The notes beneath the pieces were generated by a model. The model saw only the letters and a list, made by a program, of their open reading frames with translations. It did not search any database and had not been told where the DNA came from. Shown here piece after piece: positions 41,528 to 63,803 of a DNA stretch of 64,000 nucleotides. Position 1 is the stretch's first letter, and each line of letters opens with the position of its first letter. The DNA is taken from NCBI GenBank assembly GCA_943788505.1, contig CALSQR010000001.1, positions 1,178,001-1,242,000 of the forward strand, written 5' to 3'. Made by a program: the position numbers and the translations under genes. Source of the stretch: an uncultured bacterium (lineage in GTDB: Bacteria; Bacteroidota; Rhodothermia; Rhodothermales; UBA10348).

Positions 41528-44500
41528 GTGCTGAATCGCCCAGTAGAATCCTGGTCTGAAGAAAAGGGGACTGCATCGTCCCGTAGGCTTCGTCATGCCC
41601 TTTCCGTGGTATTGGCGCTCTTCGTCATATCCATGGTATGGGTGAGTTCTGCCGCCACCGACCCAGACTTCAGGGAATGGCGCAAAAACGCCGGGTTTAT
41701 TGCTCTAGCCGATACAGATTCTGTTGCAATCGACCTGATTGGCTTTGATTCACTGGGCTTTGACTCACTAGGGGTTGATTCCCTTGCGCTCGACACGCTG
41801 GATGTTGACAGCCTCGTGGTGGACTCCCTTTTCTTGCCGGATTCAGCCTTGGTGTGGGACTACCTCCCGGCCTTCCGCCGCGACAGTTGGACCGCTTCCG
41901 CTCAACCAAGGGATCGGTTGATCATGTCCCCTTCATTGGGCAGGTGGTGGAGCTACGAGATAGTATTTGATACCACGGCCAGAACCTACACGGCACGTGA
42001 AAAAGTCGGCGACCTCGATGTTCGTTATCCGATTACACTCAACTACGATGAATATCGCGCTGCCCGTCTGAGCAAGGACATGGACGACACATGGCAGGAA
42101 CTCCTGCTTCAGCGTGAGCGGGCCGAACAGCAGCGACGACGCGGAGGTCTTGGCTTCAACATTGTTGTGCCCGGTGGACGAAACAAGGCCTTTACCACCA
42201 TTTTCGGGAGCAACACCGTCGATCTCCGAGTCAACGGTACGGCGGATATCCACGCAGGCTTTGATTACCGCAAAAGTGATCAGCAAGTATCCATCACGGG
42301 TAAGCCAAGTCAACTTGATCCGGAATTCAAGCAAGACCTTAGTCTTGGAATTACGGGAACGATTGGAGACAAATTGCGCATCAACGTCAATTATGACTCG
42401 CGCAATCAATTCGATTTCCAGAATCAGCTCAAGCTCGAGTACACGGGCTATGAAGATGAGATCATTCAAAAAATTGAGGCTGGAAACGTCTTTCTACAGA
42501 CGCCTTCTTCGCTCATCCGAGGTGGACAAAGCCTTTTTGGAATTAAGAGTGAGTTACAACTTGGTGGCATCCGGCTAACGACTGTAATGAGTCAGCAGGA
42601 AGGCCAGTCGAATAGCCTCAACATTGAAGGAGGGTCTGAGGAAACGGAGTTTGACCTTCGACCCACGGACTATGATGAAGCCAATCACTTCTTCCTTAGC
42701 TATTACTTCCGTAACCGGTTTGAGGATGCCCTCCGAGATCCTCCCAACATTCGTGTTGGCAATGGCTTCGAACGTATTACAGAAATTGAGATTTGGAAGC
42801 TCATGCCCACGCGCCCTGAAGAGGAAAACGTGCGCCAGATTGTGGCTATGGTGGACCTTGGAGAATCCCAAGACCTTTTGTCTCAAGCGAATGAATTCAC
42901 TCTGGAAGAACTCCCCTCCAATGACCGTGACCAGTATGATGATGCAGACGGTGGAGAAATAGCCCTCGAATTGAGGGATGGAAATGCAGCGCCAGGCTCT
43001 TATCTCGAGACGGTCAAAGACTTGTCTAGCTCAGATTTCCAGGTAGGAAAATTTAAACGCCTAGAACAAGGCCGAGACTATGACATCGACGAAGTCCTAG
43101 GGTATGTCACGATGCGCCAGCGCATTCAAGAGAGCGAAGCTCTTGCCGTGGCATTCCGCTATCGCGCAAGTGGACGCACGTACCAGGTCGGTGACTTTTC
43201 TACGGACACTGGGGGCTCAGACGGTGGTCAGAATGAAGATAAGCTTGTCCTGAAGCTCGTACGTCCTGTTCAGCTTCGACAGCCATCGCCGGAATCCAAC
43301 TTCAATCCAGCTGCTTGGTATCTGGAGATGAAGAATATTTATCGTCTTCCCGGACGAGGTATTCAGCCTAACGAATTCGAACTACAAGTTTTCTTCGAAC
43401 CTCCAGGGCAAACAGCGTCGAAAACGCTTCCTGGGGCGGGTGGAACTCAGACTATTCTGCAGCTGACAGGGCTGGACCGGGTCAACGAAGACCAAGCCCT
43501 TCAACCGGATGACCTGTTCGACTTCCTAGTCAACTACACCATAGTTCCTGGAGAGGGAACGCTGATTTTCCCCTATCTAGAGCCTTTTGGATCCAGGATT
43601 TCGGATGTGATTGATGAAGGCGGCGGACCTCAAGAGTCTCGCGATGCCCTGCGAGATGTTTTTGTATTCAAAACTCTCTACAATCAGAAAAAAGCCAACG
43701 CGCGTAGAGACAGTCAGCATGATGTATATCGAATCAGAGGTTCATATCGCGGTTCGACCCAATCATCATATGACTTGAACGCGTTTTCGGGGGTCATTGA
43801 AGGATCCGTCCGAGTGACGTCGGGAGGAACGCCTTTATCAGAAGGCACTGATTTCGTGGTAGAATATTCCGGTACAGGATTGGTGCAGATCATTAATCCT
43901 GCCTTCCTATCTGCCGGACGCGATATCGAAATCGAATTTGAGCAGAACTCCTTCTTCAATATTCAGAAGAAGACGCTGGTTGGAATGAGAGCCGATTATG
44001 TGATGGATGAACGACTGTCTCTGGGCGCAACAGTGATGCAGATGAAACAGAAGTCACCCATCGACAAATACCGTATTGGGGAAGAGCCGATTTCAAACAC
44101 TATTTGGGGTGTTGACGGATCACTACGACTCGAGCCCCGGTGGATGACTCGTGCGATTGACTTCGTACCCCTGCTGCAAACGAAGGAGCCGTCGATGGTC
44201 TCACTCACTGGAGAATTCGCCCAGTTACGACCTGGGAATACCCAAACGGTTGCCTTCGAACGGACCCGCCGTGAATTGCAGGACGCCAATAGGGATTTTG
44301 CCCGTGATGAACTCGGTGGGCAGTCTTATATCGATGACTTCGAAGGCTTCGAAAACACCTTCACCATGATGCAGCCTGGGGCATGGGGCTTGGCCTCAGC
44401 ACCGGACTCGATTGGCGCAATTGACCGTAATGGTATACTGAGTGGTTTCCGATCTGACTCTCTACGAACCAACTGGCGAGGCAATTTCGCGTGGTATCGC

Positions 44501-47500
44501 ATCAATGCAAATATGCTAAAAGAGATACCAACTATTGCCTTTAGCGCCGATGCAATTCGGATTTTCCGGATCGATGAGGTCTTTCCTAACAGGGATACGC
44601 GAGCAGAAATCGACCCGACGCTGGAGACGTATGATTTCTACTTCAACCCAACGGAGCGAGGACCTTACAACTACACAAGGAATCTGCGCGGATTCTTAGA
44701 CAACCCCAAACAAAGTTGGGGCGGGATGACGCAACGGTTGCCGGAAGGCTTTACCGATTTCAGTCTGAAAAACATCGATTTCGTAGAGTTCATTTTCCGC
44801 CCATTCCCGGAAAATGCCCAAAATGATGCTGGTTCGGATGCGAAGTTATATGTCGACTTGGGATCTATTTCCGAAGACATCCTTCCGGACGAAAAGCTCA
44901 ATAACGAAGATGGCCTGTCTACGAGCACGATAACTGAGGGTGGTATTTTGGACTGGGGGCGTAGTCCGACGGGCGCTCAAAACAGCGTAGTAGACATCGA
45001 CGATGCTTCTCGACGCACGGAAGACCTTGGTCTCGATGGACTTGCTAGTGGAAGCTCAGACTACCCTCCTTTTGCTACGGAAGAAGTGCATTTTGCTAAC
45101 TTCCTAGCCTCTCTTGACCGTACCTCGAGTGACCCCAAGTACCGTGCAGAAGTAGCCAAGGCATTAGCAGATCCATCTGGAGATGACTACCACTACTTCG
45201 GAAACTCTCAGTACTACCAAAATTCGAGTTATTTCCCCAACGTAGCATCGTTCCAGCAACACTTCAGTCACTACTTCGCTGGGCAGGAGCTCAATGCGTT
45301 CGAAACCCAAACCAAGCTCGCCAACAACACATCCATCAAACGTGGTAACTCACGCTTTCCGGATTCTGAAGACCGCAACTTGAACTCAACGGTCGATACG
45401 GAAAACAGCTATTACCAGTATGAACTTCCCCTTTCCAGACGAACGCTGGACTCTCTCGCTGCCCCAGGCATGGTTGATGACTATATCGTAGGCGAGGTTG
45501 CGGATGCTAATGGAAATGGCACGGGGTGGTATCAGGTACGAATCCCAGTTCAGCAGTACGACCGGAAAGTGGGTGACATCCAAGACTTTTCCTTGATTGA
45601 GTTCATGCGCTTGTGGACGACAGGGCACGAAGTCCCATTCACAGCACGTTTTGCTTCGCTCGAACTCGTTGGGTCACAGTGGCAGAAGTCGGAAAGAGTC
45701 ACTCTTGAACATGAAACTGCCTTCGACACAACAGGCACCGATACCCGGCTAACGATTTCCAGTATTAACAACGAGGAAAACGCCGAGACGTACCAGCCCC
45801 CGATTGGAGCCGTCGTCAGCCAGTCTCGTCTCGCTTCCGGACGTGTACAGAATGCACGCGAGCAGTCTCTTGTAATTAGGGTTGAAAATCTCAAACCAGG
45901 CAAACAAAGGGCTATTTTCAAGACGCAGAATTCTGGCCTAGACTTACTCAAATATTCCAACCTCCGCATGTTTGTTCATACTCATGGACGGCTTGCCGAT
46001 GGTACGGACCTTGCTTCCCTGCCAAAAGAAGATGCGCGCGCTAAAGCAAAGCTGTTCGTTCGGCTCGGCTCAAACGAAACAAATGATTACTACGAGTACG
46101 AACAGCCTCTTTCTCCGAGTTTTGAAAATGCTGGTTCATCGGATGAGCTTTGGCAGACAGCCGTCGACTTTTTAGGTGAATTCAGAGACCTTGGGTCGAT
46201 GAATATCGAACTTGGAGCGCTCAACCAGCTAAAAGTCGCTCGAGATCGAATTGCCTTCCCTACCGATAGCGTCTTTTTTAGTGCAACCAACGGAGAGCTG
46301 ACTACGCCCGATTCACCGGATGCGGAGCTCTTTGCTCCTCCTGGTACTCGTTTGGGAATTAGAGGGACACCGTCTCTGGGTAAGGTTAATAGCATCGTCA
46401 TTGGTGTTCGGAATGCAGCTGACTCCACGCTAACCGGGTTCGACCATATCCTCGAAGACATCACATTGTGGATCAACGAGTTACGTGTTTCGGGATATGA
46501 CTCAGAGAATGGATGGGCTGCCCTGTCAAACATCGACATCCAACTTGCGGACCTTGGGCGAGTAAAAGCCAGCTTTCAGCGACAGACAGACGGATTCGGC
46601 TCGCTGTCCTCTAGCCTGGGAGAACGCGAACAGCTGAGTATTAACAACTGGACCGTCACGACAGAATTGAATGCGGACAAAGTGATTCCAGAGCGGTACG
46701 GCTGGTCGATGCCCGTAAACCTGCAGGTCCAGTCAAATAAGACCACTCCCCGATTCTCCCCTACCAGAGGAGATATTCGTCTCGAAGAACTCATTAATCA
46801 GATTGATGATCGCGAAGACCTAAGTGACCAGGAAAAATCGGAGGCCAAAACAGAGGCCACCAAATCAGCTCAAACCTATACCCTTTCTAAATCGTTATCG
46901 ACACGAGTGGGCAAATCGGGCTCGCGTAACAAGATCCTGCGTAATACGGTGGATGGTGTCGCAGTAGCCTACTCTCAGGCAACAGTCGATGGCCGTAGCC
47001 CTTCCCAGCAGTTAAATACTTCCTGGCGCTGGTCAAGTACTCTATCGTACCGTTTTCAAACGCGTCGACCCAAAACGCTCCGCCCATTTTTCTTCCTGGA
47101 TCCAATTCCATTGTTGCGTGCACTCGGCGGAATCAACTTTAACTATGCACCCGCACTTGTCTCCGTATCTGGAGCCTTTAATCGGCAATTCAACCAGACA
47201 AGGGAACGCGCGATCATTAACCCAGGAGACGCGAACACAACACCCATCGACGTTCGCTTCCCGTTGCGCGAAAAGCACGCGTTCACCCACGGTAGGGATT
47301 TCCAGTTTCAGTACAATCCATTCGGGTTCTTAAACCTTAGTTTTGATACCAAAACTGACCAGAGCTTCAATGTTGTTGGCGTGGATACCCTCTACAACGT
47401 CGTTACGCCAGACACCACGCTGTTCAATACCACTATAACTTCTGCGATTGACCAAGGTCTCCTTTCAGAAGAACAAGTAGCTAACGCGTTTCAGGTTCCC

Positions 47501-49483
47501 CTTCTGGATGTAAAGTCAGGGAGTTCAGTCCTTGGACAGTTTTTCAGCGGCGGAATCACGCCCCGAACAGAGCGTCACAATCAGGTCTTTAGAGCATCAT
47601 TCAGACCTCGCATTGAGGCCGTCAAAATACTCGACTGGATCCAGATCCAGGACGTCGGATATCAGGCGAATTTTGATTGGCAGAACGGCCCCCTCGGCCG
47701 CAATAACGGTGCGTCAATTCGCAATACCGTAGAACTGCGCGCTGGAATTTCTTTTCGCATTCAGGACATGTGGCGCAAGTTCGGATTCTATGAATCCATT
47801 GAGCAAGCTCAACGCAATTACCTGCAAATAAAGGAAACAAATCGAGCCAATAAGCTGAAGGAAAAAGAGGCACGCAAGAAAATAAAGGAGGCCAGAAAGC
47901 TTGCTAGAAAAAGTGGCGTTGAAATGCCTGATGAGTTGCCAGCTGAAAAAGCCGCGCAGGAAGCACAAGATGCACTGGCTGAGCAAGCTGAAAAGGATGG
48001 GGAGGATACAGAGGCTGATTCCGAGGAGGAAAAAGAAGACTCTGGTCCAGGATTTTCTGGTCGGTTGGTTTCCTACGCCCGTCAATTGCTGCTAAGCTCC
48101 ACAGGAATCCGAGACTTCAATCTATCTTATCAGAACACACGAAGCGGAACCTCATCCAACGTAGGCTCTGGTGTTTTCGATGAGGATGGCCTACTCCAAG
48201 ATGTGGCCACATTTTATTCCATACGGGATGCAATTCGTGGGAATGGAGCTTCTTTAGGCTATCGCTTTGGGTTCAAGCGACAGTTTGATGTCGCGGATAG
48301 GATCGTGGACCCATCACTTCAGGTCTCTGACCTTCTCAGTGATGCCCATCGATTCCAAGGACGTACAACGCTCAATCCTTCTCCGTCTTTGAACGTGACC
48401 TTAAACTGGAACCTTGACCTCCAGCAGAACGAGACATTCACCTTCCGACCTGCAACCGACGACTTGGGCATGGTAATCGGTGTGGACACGACCATCACAC
48501 GGAGTGGAAACAACAAGGCTTCCATCTGGGCATTCGGCTCCTCTTACCTGGATATGTTCTCAAGTCAGCTTACTACGTTCCAAGATGACTTGGCTGCCGC
48601 CATTAACCCAGATCCAATCATTATCGCCGATGACAACCAGGACGGGCGTACAGTCCTTACAAATACGTCTGTAGTGGAAGACTTTAGGCAGGCATTCGTG
48701 AAAGGCACGACAACTGTCGATGACCTAGGAATCGCGCCGCTACCGAAACCGACTTGGCAGGTTAACTATTCGGGCCTTTCCAATTGGCCCATCATTCGGC
48801 GTCTTACCAAGAGCGTTTCCTTGAGACACGCTTACTCTGGCGATTATGCAGCAGATTTCAACACGAATACAGCTTTTGCAAGCGAGGACACTGTTCGAAC
48901 AGTAGATCTTGGATCTCGACGTATTCAGTTTGCGGTTGAAGAGTACCAGATCAACAACATCCGTATCAACGAAAGCTACCGGCCGCTTTTAGGCGTAGAT
49001 ATCACCTGGGCTGGCAATATCTCTACCTCGGTCACTTGGTCTAAAAGCAATTCGTATTCACTTAGTACGGCCAACTTTGAGGTCAGCGAGAACAAGACTA
49101 CTGAATTGGGTGTCGATATAAATTATCAGAAGTCGGGCATGAAACTGCCATTCTTTAAGAAAATGAATAATCGTTTGACGCTGCAGCTTAGAATCACGTC
49201 TAGTGAAACGATCGATCAGCGTTTGAGACTTCGTCGAGCACTGGAGCAAGCTGTAACTGATCCTGAGTTTATTCTAGCCAATGCCTTAGAGGGAGATAAT
49301 ATTTCACTGGTAACCGCCCACAAACGACTAATAATGACACCGCGAATCGCTTATCAGTTCAGTAATAGGGTAACCGCTGACTTCACTCTCAAATACGAAA
49401 AATTCGACTCGGAAGACTCTCGTCAACCTTCCTCAGTGAACATCAACGGTACGTTTAATATCCGCGTCAGTATTGCTAACTGA
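41528..49483 (+). CDS. sprA: SprA, outer-membrane translocon of the type IX secretion system
   Basis: A 2651-residue SprA, the giant beta-barrel pore of the type IX system (and of gliding in motile relatives). After a signal peptide ([13 protein letters not shown]) comes a run of DSL repeats (residues 59-105), common in SprA N-termini. The SprA-N signatures recur ([22 protein letters not shown]; later [10 protein letters not shown]). Late barrel strands end in FNIRVSIAN. Unusual is a Lys/Glu-rich helical insert of about 70 residues near 2100-2175. The start is GTG. The two sorting-domain proteins in this window (8.8 and 27.6 kb) are probable cargo. It shares a TGATG overlap with lipB. Confidence 0.93.
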
Positions 49484-57525: not shown

Positions 57526-58455
57526 CTACTCGAGCGTCTTGATATAGGCTACGAGTCCATCCAACTGCTTTGGAGACAAGGTGGAAGAGAACATGGCAGG
57601 CATGACGGGCTGGTATCCCTCAGCGATTTTCGCCATGGGATTGACAATTGACTCAAGCAGATAGTCTTCGTCCGCTACAACGGTGCTTCCATCAGCTAAT
57701 GGACGAGTAGTACCATATAGCCCCGCAAGCGTAGGACCAATTCCTGCCGACCCATCGACGGAGTGACATGCTTGGCATTGGGCATATACTTGGAGTCCCA
57801 ATTCGGCAGGTGGAAGATCCTGGCTTTGCTCGGCAATCCACTTATTGAATTCATCCTGAGGGACCGCGACGACCTTCGCCATCATGCCGGAATGCTGCGT
57901 ACCGCAATACTCCGTGCAATAGATGTCATATTCGCCGGCCTGTGTGGCTTCAAACCAAACGGAGGTGTACCGATTTGGAATCACATCATGCTTGATGCGG
58001 AAGTCAGGGACAAAAAATGAATGCAATACATCACTCGAGTTCATTACGAGCTTCACTGGGCGACCAACAGGAACGTACATCTCCGTATAGGAAACGGCTC
58101 CTTCCTGGTACTGGAATTCCCAAGACCACTGTTGCGCCCGCACACTGATCTCATACGAATCAGGTGGTGCTGTATTTAATTTTACGAAGACTTCGAAACC
58201 CCACGTAAAAACGATGAGGGTCAGAATCGTGGGTAACACGATCCAGACGGCTTCAAGAACTTTGCTCTCTTCGACCGGCTCCGGTACGTACGTTTCGTCC
58301 GTGCGCCTGAACTTCACCATGAAATACACTTTTGCCACAATGACCATGGCAAAAATGATGGTACTCGCCCAGAACACGAACCAGAACAGGGCATCGACCT
58401 CCCCTGCGAGAGTCGACATGGCGTCCGGCAGCCAGACAGATCCGTTATCGCCCAT
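57526..58455 (-). CDS. coxB: Cytochrome c oxidase subunit II with fused cytochrome c (caa3)
   Basis: A 309-residue subunit with two N-terminal helices, the CuA domain and a C-terminal class I cytochrome c. CuA ligands are visible at H145, C180, E182, C184, H188 and M191. The heme c site is CQACH (227-231) with Met about 285 or 288 as sixth ligand. The fused cytochrome makes this a caa3 oxidase, taking electrons directly from the Act complex or from a soluble donor. It follows sco by 38 bp. Confidence 0.95.
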
Positions 58456-58493: not shown

Positions 58494-59423
58494 TCAGGTC
58501 TGATGAACTCGTTCCACTTGATCATGCTGCTCCTTACGCCAGAAAACGAAAAGACCCGCACCAAGCATCAGTAGGGTGAACATCCCACCGAGTTTCATCA
58601 GGTTTGTTGCATGTAAAACGTAGGAATTCGAGCCTGGGTCATACTGAAAGCAGTACATAAGGAACTGATCAACCGCCGTTCCTACCTCCCCGTTCGAAGC
58701 TTCCACTAGTCCGCGACGTACATCTGAAGCCGCTACGTCTATTCCGTGCAGATACCGAGTAATCGTTCCGTCTTCAGCGAGTAGAACGACGACAGCTGGA
58801 TGAGCATATTCTTTTCTAGATGCAATCCACTTGAATGTGTATCCGACAGAACCCGTAAGCTCCATGATGCTCTCTTCCTCACCTACGAGAAAGTGCCACC
58901 CATCTTCAGCACCACGCCGACCCAATGATGAAATCATACGGTCTTTAGCAGCGGCAGCCATTTCGGGGGTCTCACCAGCGCCAAAACTTACGGTCAATAC
59001 GTCAAACTCGTTGCCAGGCGTCCATGCAAGATCGCCCAGTGTAGTGCCTAATGCGTCTAGAGCAATGCTGCAGAGCATCGGGCAATTATGATAGACCAAG
59101 TTCAAAATTACAGGCCGTCCTTTGCCCAGATAGTCACCGATCTGTACTGAACGGCCCGCGCTGTCAAGAAACGAAGTGGTTGTTGCAATCTTAGTCCCGA
59201 GCATTTCCTCTACACCAACTCCCGCCAAATAGGAATCGAGGGCTGGGATCTGTGAGGACGTCATATCCTCTCCGTCTTGATTCATTGGATCTGCAGCAGA
59301 CGTGATATGATCATGCGATACTGCGTCAGCATCCAGGTCAGAAGCCTCTTGTGCGGTCACGACTCCTGGTGCGTAAACAACCAAGAAGAGGACAAGAACG
59401 ATATGGTGAATGAACTTCTTGAT
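58494..59423 (-). CDS. SCO1/SenC copper-delivery protein (apparent ATC start)
   Basis: A 309-residue thioredoxin-fold protein that inserts copper into the CuA site. The copper CxxxC is NLVYHNCPMLCSI, with a later ITRYLHGID His, and a C-terminal membrane helix (LFVFWRKE). The only standard in-frame start near the 5' end is TTG 59384, which cuts the signal peptide. Thirteen codons upstream ATC 59423 begins KKFIHHIVLVLFLVVYAPG VVTAQ-type signal, and AGGAA lies 10 bases before it. ATG, GTG and TTG are absent further back to a TGA. I therefore place the start at ATC. A sequencing error at this codon is the alternative. Confidence 0.85.
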   Translation of the reverse strand: MKKFIHHIVLVLFLVVYAPGVVTAQEASDLDADAVSHDHITSAADPMNQDGEDMTSSQIPALDSYLAGVGVEEMLGTKIATTTSFLDSAGRSVQIGDYLGKGRPVILNLVYHNCPMLCSIALDALGTTLGDLAWTPGNEFDVLTVSFGAGETPEMAAAAKDRMISSLGRRGAEDGWHFLVGEEESIMELTGSVGYTFKWIASRKEYAHPAVVVLLAEDGTITRYLHGIDVAASDVRRGLVEASNGEVGTAVDQFLMYCFQYDPGSNSYVLHATNLMKLGGMFTLLMLGAGLFVFWRKEQHDQVERVHQT

Positions 59424-59437
59424 ACTAGGTTTTCTTC

Positions 59438-59743
59438 CTACTGTCCCGCTGATTGGGCTTCGAGTTCCATAGCCCGTTCGATCGGAATTTTGTACGTGCC
59501 ATCGTCATTGGCCTCGTAGCCACTAAGCTTCGCATGCCCATTCATTTCCGTTTCATGCAGGGTTGGATAGCCAGAAACAGTAGTTACTTCAAGCTTATAG
59601 TCCTGGAAATGCATTTTTGCGAATTCGAAGCCTACAACGACGATTGCAAAAATGATAACGACACTAACGCCGATTACGCTGAACAGCATCGTTGTGTCGA
59701 CGCTTTCTGGTTCTACGCCAGGATTGTTGATGGGTGCGCCCAT
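59438..59743 (-). CDS. Unnamed single-helix membrane protein in the Act-caa3 operon
   Basis: A 101-residue protein with one helix (TTMLFSVIGVSVVIIFAIVVVGFEFA) and a soluble tail (GYPTLHETEMNGHAKLSGYEANDDGTYKIPIERAMELEAQ). It lies between actF and sco, 14 bp from each. In the tail, HETEMNGHAKLSGY is conserved-looking but matches no metal motif I know. Location suggests a small subunit or assembly factor of the Act-caa3 supercomplex. No heme or Fe-S ligands. Confidence 0.7.
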   Translation of the reverse strand: MGAPINNPGVEPESVDTTMLFSVIGVSVVIIFAIVVVGFEFAKMHFQDYKLEVTTVSGYPTLHETEMNGHAKLSGYEANDDGTYKIPIERAMELEAQSAGQ

Positions 59744-62348: not shown

Positions 62349-63803
62349 TTACTGCTTCTGTCCGGCGTTCACGTTCACTGCGTGAGCAGCGTCGTGACCG
62401 TCCCCTTCGTGGTCGTAGAAGTGTGGATCTGCCTCAGGCATGACCCCTTTCACTTCAGATACCGCGACGATGGGTAAGAATCTCAGGAAGAGCAGGAAGA
62501 AGGTGAAGAAGAGGCCGAACGTTCCCACAAAAGTGAGTACGTCGACGAATGTGGGCGTGTAATAGTCCCAAGAGCTCGGTAGGTAATCGCGGTGAAGCGA
62601 TGTGACGGTAATCACAAATCGCTCGAACCACATACCGATGTTCACGAAAATCGAAATGATGAACATGAACGTGATGTTGCGACGCAGCTTTTTGAACCAG
62701 AAGAACTGGGGGAAGAAGAGGTTGCAAGACATCATCGTCCAATAGGCCCATGCATAAGGACCAAACATGCGATTTGTGAACGCATACTGCTCGTACTGCA
62801 CGCCGGAATACCAGGCGACGAAGAACTCGGTGATGTAGGCAAAGCCAACCATCGTACCAGTAAGCAGGATGACGATGTTCATCTTTTCGAGATGATCCAC
62901 CGTGATAATATTCTCAACGCCGTAGATCTTACGAGCGATAACGAGCAGGGTAACTACCATGGCAAAGCCAGAGAAGATAGCCCCAGCCACGAAGTAAGGC
63001 GGGAAAATCGTCGTGTGCCACCCCGGCACAACGGATACAGCAAAGTCAAAAGAAACGACTGAGTGGACCGACAGAACCAGCGGTGTTGCCAAAGCAGCCA
63101 GCAAGAGATACGCTTTTTCGTAATTGCGCCAGTGGCGGTTGGCACCCGTCCATCCCATCGCAAGAACACCCGTTACCATGCGACGAAGCTTCGTTGTTGC
63201 CCGGTCACGCAATGTGGCGATGTCCGGCACCAGACCAACATACCAGAAGACCAAGGAAACGGTGAAGTAGGTCGAAACGGCAAAAACGTCCCAGAGAAGC
63301 GGACTCTTGAACTGAGGCCACATACCCATCTGGTTCGGCAGGGGAAGTGTCCAGTAAATCGCCCAAACACGACCAACGTGAATAGTTGGGAATACTAGAG
63401 CGCAAATGACGGCAAAAATCGTCATTGCCTCTGCAGACCGGTTAATTGCCGTCCTCCATTGCTGCCTGAAAAGGAAAAGAATAGCCGAGATCAGCGTCCC
63501 AGCGTGACCAATACCCACCCAGAACACGAAGTTCACGATGGCATAGCCCCAGCCGACCGGGTTGTTGAGTCCCCATACACCTGTTCCATTCCAGAACAGG
63601 TAAGCGATCATGATAAGTAGCAGCATCAATCCGACAAGTGCCAGACTAAATGCGCCATACCATGCTAATGGAGTCTTCTTCTCGGTGTGGGAAGAAACGA
63701 GTTCGGTAATGTCGTGGAATTTCAGATTCCCGGTCACAAGCGGAGCTTCATCATGGAAGTCCGCCAAAGAGGCGAGTGTCTTATCCTTGCTTGCCGTATT
63801 CAC
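62349..63803 (-). CDS. actC: Alternative complex III subunit ActC (NrfD-like quinol site)
   Basis: A 484-residue NrfD/PsrC-type protein with ten helices that binds menaquinol. [91 protein letters not shown], and [39 protein letters not shown] match ActC over the whole length. The start is GTG 63803, 37 bp after the actB stop. Confidence 0.95.

Follow-up and report, generated by a model that had tools for sequence, protein, structure and literature searches.

A conserved AUC or AUU codon as the very probable start of sco in three genera of one Rhodothermales family

Where does translation begin when a reading frame encodes a complete signal peptide and offers no canonical start codon in front of it? 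This question is raised by sco in the 64,000-nucleotide stretch of DNA analysed here (the window; G000:C1:1178001-1242000), which belongs to a genome of 2.75 Mb in 2 contigs. On the minus strand of the window, the respiratory genes follow one another as ACIII-like genes, gene X, sco and the cytochrome oxidase genes. The names actC to actF for the ACIII-like genes and the labels of oxidase subunits I and III are putative assignments, and the gene for subunit II (57526..58455, minus strand, ATG start), directly downstream of sco, was identified by family profile matches. The sco frame is open from a TGA (59507-59505) to its stop (58496-58494), and a codon scan bore out the claim of an earlier note on this DNA that the frame has no ATG, GTG, TTG or CTG between that TGA and the TTG at 59384-59382. 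None of the four occurs in the 27 codons between the TGA and an ATC (59423-59421, minus strand), and after the ATC the TTG is the first canonical codon. The ATC stands where the full signal peptide, also recognised in the earlier note, must begin, as the protein read from it shows basic residues and then a hydrophobic core (IKKFIHHIVLVLFLVVYAPGVVTA, followed by Gln at the putative cleavage site; 59349..59423, minus strand). The coding sequence read from this codon comprises 309 codons plus the stop (58494..59423, minus strand). If translation began at the TTG, which falls within the hydrophobic core, the peptide ahead of the Gln would shrink to 11 residues; the earlier note had put it at about nine before the cleavage site.

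Gene X (59438..59743, minus strand, 101 amino acids, ATG start) sits between actF and sco and was kept in all 20 sco regions compared, with no Pfam or NCBIfam family matching it. Its TAG (59440-59438) is separated from the ATC by a spacer of 14 bases (59424..59437, minus strand). The upstream stop from which the earlier note counted 14 bases to the ATC is this TAG of X, and it lies out of the sco frame.

As to the identity of the gene, the marks of a Sco protein are a CxxxC motif and, further on, a conserved His; in the window the motif is CPMLC (residues 114-118; 59070..59084, minus strand), which we take to be the copper site, and CPM(L/I)C together with AHP was present in 14/14 Sco proteins. 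Against SCO1/SenC (PF02630), the window's protein reached 20.4 bits, below the curated cut-off of 22.8, and three orthologues scored above it (27.0, 28.8 and 28.0 bits). It also matched PDB 3me7, an entry titled uncharacterized protein, with an E value of 1.5e-10, and a gene for cytochrome oxidase subunit II was found in 20/20 sco regions compared. The window's Sco is the longest, with 309 residues vs 274-285 in the 13 others, and an extra stretch of approximately 24 or more residues follows its signal peptide (59273-59348).

Is the ATC conserved as a start would be? The family set consisted of 27 genomes, 26 of them with Sco (G009 gave no Sco match), and the 14 sco genomes compared at this codon represent three genera, namely seven genomes of the window's own genus (g1), one of g5 and six of g6. 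A further 57 loci, several of which duplicate contigs already in the set, were not counted among the 14. When the comparison was anchored on the cleavage-site Gln, the distance from the AUH codon to this Gln was 24 codons in 14/14 genomes, and the codon was ATC in the seven g1 genomes and the g5 genome (8/14) and ATT in the six g6 genomes (6/14). Across 61 codon offsets, ATC, ATT or ATA was found in 14/14 genomes at codon -24 and in at most 4/14 at every other offset; canonical starts were found in 0/14 at the AUH codon and in at most 5/14 at any other. Roughly 40 codons without a canonical start in one genome would be thin, weak support if taken alone; the pattern goes beyond chance because 14 genomes were compared over 61 codon offsets. 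Pairwise nucleotide identity, scanned in 15-base steps, also jumped here: five g6 genomes (L011 excluded) went from 0.37 to 1.00, and the seven g1 genomes from 0.27 to 0.59. The earlier note had named relatives carrying ATG at this codon as evidence that would speak against its proposal, and each of the 13 remaining genomes from g1, g5 and g6 lacked ATG, GTG and TTG there, which supports its view of ATC as the sco start. Although the compared genomes are, as far as indicated, draft assemblies of uncultured bacteria, which counts against the start reading, we hold with high confidence that the ATC/ATT codon is the sco start in these genomes.

The same comparison bears on the possibility that an ordinary start, ATG AAG AAG TTC, was altered by a sequencing or assembly error or by a mutation private to the window. 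A single base change would indeed give such a typical start in the window, but the same codon, as ATC or ATT, recurs in 13 further genomes that stem from separate projects; a sequencing error is therefore ruled out by the relatives, and we give this explanation practically no chance. A second alternative places the start at a canonical codon within the signal peptide or ahead of it and takes the conserved Ile for an ordinary residue. Such codons are present within the peptide in 12/14 genomes and upstream in frame in 6/14 (L003, L007, L009, L011, L012 and L014), but they share no common position, the best-shared offset being -5 (5/14), which leaves five residues before the Gln. Moreover, L011 and L014 have none inside the peptide, no ATG, GTG or TTG lies between the in-frame stop and the AUH codon in eight genomes (L001, L002, L004-L006, L008, L010 and L017, the last carrying a CTG upstream of the AUH), and identity drops just upstream of the Ile codon, so that we regard a common canonical start as very unlikely. 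Since the canonical codons upstream and inside are unshared, other sco starts are possible in single genomes, for example in L008, with a TTG immediately after the ATC, and in L007, with a TTG five codons ahead of it.

The closeness of gene X, the stop of which lies only 11 to 52 bases upstream of the AUH codon (16 bases in L009 and L010), could suggest that sco is produced by frameshifting or read-through out of X. However, the frame of X relative to that of sco differs between the 14 genomes, with all three possibilities represented, and the sco frame is interrupted by a stop shortly ahead of the Ile codon in L005 (five codons before its ATC) and in L010 and L017 (three before their ATT). 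Gaps of this range in all three frames leave no common read-through or frameshift, and the varying frames together with the in-frame stops rule this route out, which we consider scarcely credible.

With regard to the initiation context, no Shine-Dalgarno motif common to the 14 sco contexts was seen by eye. The AGGAA ahead of the ATC that the earlier note had pointed to is present (59439-59435), but relatives have no visible counterpart, so it lends poor support. According to a report on Flavobacterium johnsoniae (Bacteroidetes), this organism works without Shine-Dalgarno sequences and relies on upstream adenines and low structure (PMC6847099), and a missing motif at sco is therefore no surprise. 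Adenine was found at -3 in 3/14 genomes, the window included, and at -6 in 7/14; two folds of the window's sequence around the sco start gave unremarkable z values of 0.35 and 0.30 for RNA structure.

The origin of the codon was traced on a tree of mature Sco from 33 genomes, including seven further members of the order. All 14 AUH genomes fell on one side of a single branch (support 99/97), and the trait required one change, a number as low as this occurring in 0/500 shuffles. Read by eye, the 12 Sco-bearing family genomes outside this branch all show ATG, GTG or TTG in frame, at the signal peptide or ahead of it, and on the same kind of reading so do the seven further order members. The AUH start is therefore a derived trait of one clade, as the distant genera are canonical. 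Within this clade, the relatives' Sco proteins are 54-66% identical to that of the window, which forms the longest branch (0.52), and the codon is ATC or ATT, never ATG. The AUH start of sco thus seems to have arisen once and then been kept during protein divergence.

In g6, conservation reaches beyond the codon itself. From the ATT onwards, about 30 bases are nearly invariant in five of the six genomes (L009, L010, L012, L014 and L017), synonymous sites included, and both flanks diverge. DNA identity over sco codons 1-10 was 96% in these five, and residues shared between two genomes used the same codon in 88/96 pairs, against fractions of 0.31-0.62 in other sco blocks; with the sixth g6 genome added, the count was 102/120. 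Comparable codon constraint was not seen in g1, where codons 1-10 and 11-20 gave 0.60 and 0.66. A 29-base g6 sequence, searched with up to three mismatches, was found once each in 5/27 genomes and always at sco, and a repeated site was ruled out by this single copy per genome. These results point to a constraint at the nucleotide level in g6, probably starting at the AUU itself.

Are such starts a general habit of these genomes? Neighbouring genes were judged in the sco regions of the 14 genomes, excluding matches that run off contig ends. Canonical codons were present at the aligned starts of oxidase subunit III (12/12), subunit I (13/13), subunit II (14/14), X (14/14, within one codon), actF (12/12), actE (12/12, within four codons), actD (12/12) and actC (10/11). 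The exception in actC (window 62349-63803; GTG in most genomes, TTG in G011) is G017, where the aligned codon is CTG and an ATG follows five codons later (L131).

Elsewhere in the genomes, AUH codons were found at two other starts. In infC (L094-L118; G000:C2:212896 in the window's own genome), codon 1 was ATC in 25/25 family matches, G003 and G009 having no match and the alignment of L114 being less sure; 21/25 had no canonical codon upstream in frame, and L097, L100, L112 and L114 had one. The second is an ABC-F gene outside the window (L163:9995-12058, G000:C1:1251995; relatives L164-L187), the product of which matched NF000355, ribosomal protection-like ABC-F, with 458.3 bits against a cut-off of 380. 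In the 24/27 genomes read, six weaker loci (L188-L193, other ABC proteins that include the best matches of G009, G010 and G026) having been excluded, the codon before IQ, LQ or VQ was ATC or ATT in 18, GTG in 3, ATG in 2 and TTG in 1, and 17 of the 18 AUH genomes had no canonical codon upstream in frame. As AUH alternates with ATG, GTG and TTG at one position, this codon can hardly be anything but the start. Taken with the invariant ATC of infC, this alternation indicates that AUC and AUU evidently serve as starts in the family.

The ABC-F gene came from a start survey in which 368 open reading frames, each having an orthologue among four genomes, were sifted by eye (roughly 60-115 genes for each genome), and it was the one further AUH gene among the matches listed. 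A second survey, of 137 open reading frames, covered the surroundings of infC, a region chosen because of that gene; in all, about 200 kb of the window's genome was sampled. The automatic survey is noisy, since it also responds to conserved leaders and overlapping frames, and a gene in which a canonical codon directly follows the AUH escapes its filter; convincing by eye were sco and ABC-F among the 368 frames and infC among the 137. Near infC, the sole addition was a thioredoxin-like gene that carries ATA in a single genome (L254; G011:C89:47263). The comparison comprised 25 loci (L266-L270 excluded), and the other 24 had ATG (23) or GTG (1); with ATA in 1/25 loci, it was taken as private or an error and rejected as an AUH-start gene.

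Considering these results, we propose the following model. Translation of sco would start from AUC in the window's own genus and g5 and from AUU in g6, the initiator tRNA pairing with the AUH codon despite the third-base mismatch, and the product would be a normal Sco with its full signal peptide. An altered initiator tRNA was rejected as the cause: the genome has 38 tRNA genes, of which 30 were typed (ARAGORN), three of these with anticodon CAU, and 8 were untyped. One of the three CAU tRNAs presumably is the initiator, judging by its sequence features. Residue 1 would be lost with the signal peptide, so that protein function should give no reason for codon 1 to stay AUH; that it has nevertheless stayed AUH suggests selection on initiation strength. 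The weak start would be old and maintained by selection, rather than a decaying ATG, and Sco, an assembly factor needed in small amounts, would be held at a lower level than the oxidase subunits of the adjoining genes. By rejecting mismatched starts, IF3 would make Sco synthesis IF3-sensitive.

Published work bears on such codons as follows. IF3 screens codon-anticodon pairing, and weak pairs yield very little product in vitro (PMC10158994); it represses the GTC start of sigR and infC's own start, which is ATT in E. coli and ATC in Streptomyces (PMC5472188). A Listeria reporter ranked the codons ATG > ATA > ATT (PMC13068326), and a survey of start-codon switches counted an ancestral AUG turned into AUU in 1/61,358 (PMC5622118). 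We consider it likely that a selectively kept weak AUC/AUU start holds Sco below the oxidase subunits, probably with sensitivity to IF3, and we lean towards the dose-control reading of the start.

The main rival to the part concerning Sco scarcity and IF3 is drift in a permissive lineage, in which AUC and AUU are merely tolerated and sco reached them without any benefit of low or IF3-sensitive synthesis. The second AUH gene from a survey not chosen for it, the ATA of the single thioredoxin-like gene and the missing common Shine-Dalgarno motif would all fit a relaxed lineage. Against it, the sco codon is AUH in 14/14 genomes, with only C and T varying, the eight neighbouring genes are nearly always canonical, and the ATC of infC itself points to working IF3 discrimination in the family. 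Drift is thus rather unlikely in our judgement, and we retain the selectively kept weak start as the preferred reading. A broader idea, which we put forward tentatively and consider doubtful as it stands, is that infC, the ribosomal protection-like ABC-F gene and sco form a small set with AUC/AUU starts all answering to IF3, which would couple the supply of an oxidase assembly factor to the translation machinery, with the 30-base element of g6 as part of the control. With such starts in infC and ABC-F of the same family, the idea of a gene set that depends on IF3 becomes testable.

Dose control through a conserved non-canonical start is already known in kind, with infC and sigR as its representatives. 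The start of pcnB of E. coli, which we take to be AUU, resembles that of sco as an AUH start outside infC, but gene and lineage are unrelated. The infC gene shares with sco a conserved AUH start; it differs in that it regulates itself via IF3 (PMC5472188), whereas sco is a respiratory assembly gene whose response to IF3 is putative. The sigR gene of Streptomyces is like sco in that its non-canonical start is conserved among relatives, its partner gene adjoins it and dose matters; it differs from sco in its GTC start, its very extensive ribosome binding site and its experimental proof (PMC5472188). In the rsbW mutants of Listeria, ATA and ATT starts reduce the dose of one operon product, as we propose for sco, but these are recent mutations under selection (PMC13068326), and the sco codon is common to three genera. 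Among the titles and abstract openings listed in searches of the open literature, none reported an AUH start of sco or of an ABC-F gene.

Bacterial genes known to rely on AUC or AUU for initiation are few. Gene finders that use only ATG, GTG and TTG cannot place AUH starts, and the window's Sco would lose its signal peptide in their predictions. That three genera have kept a weak start suggests that start strength is used to set the ratio of assembly factor to enzyme. Elsewhere in the window, a frame that opens with GTG and spans 2651 codons (41528-49483) has orthologues that are 73-81% identical in three relatives.
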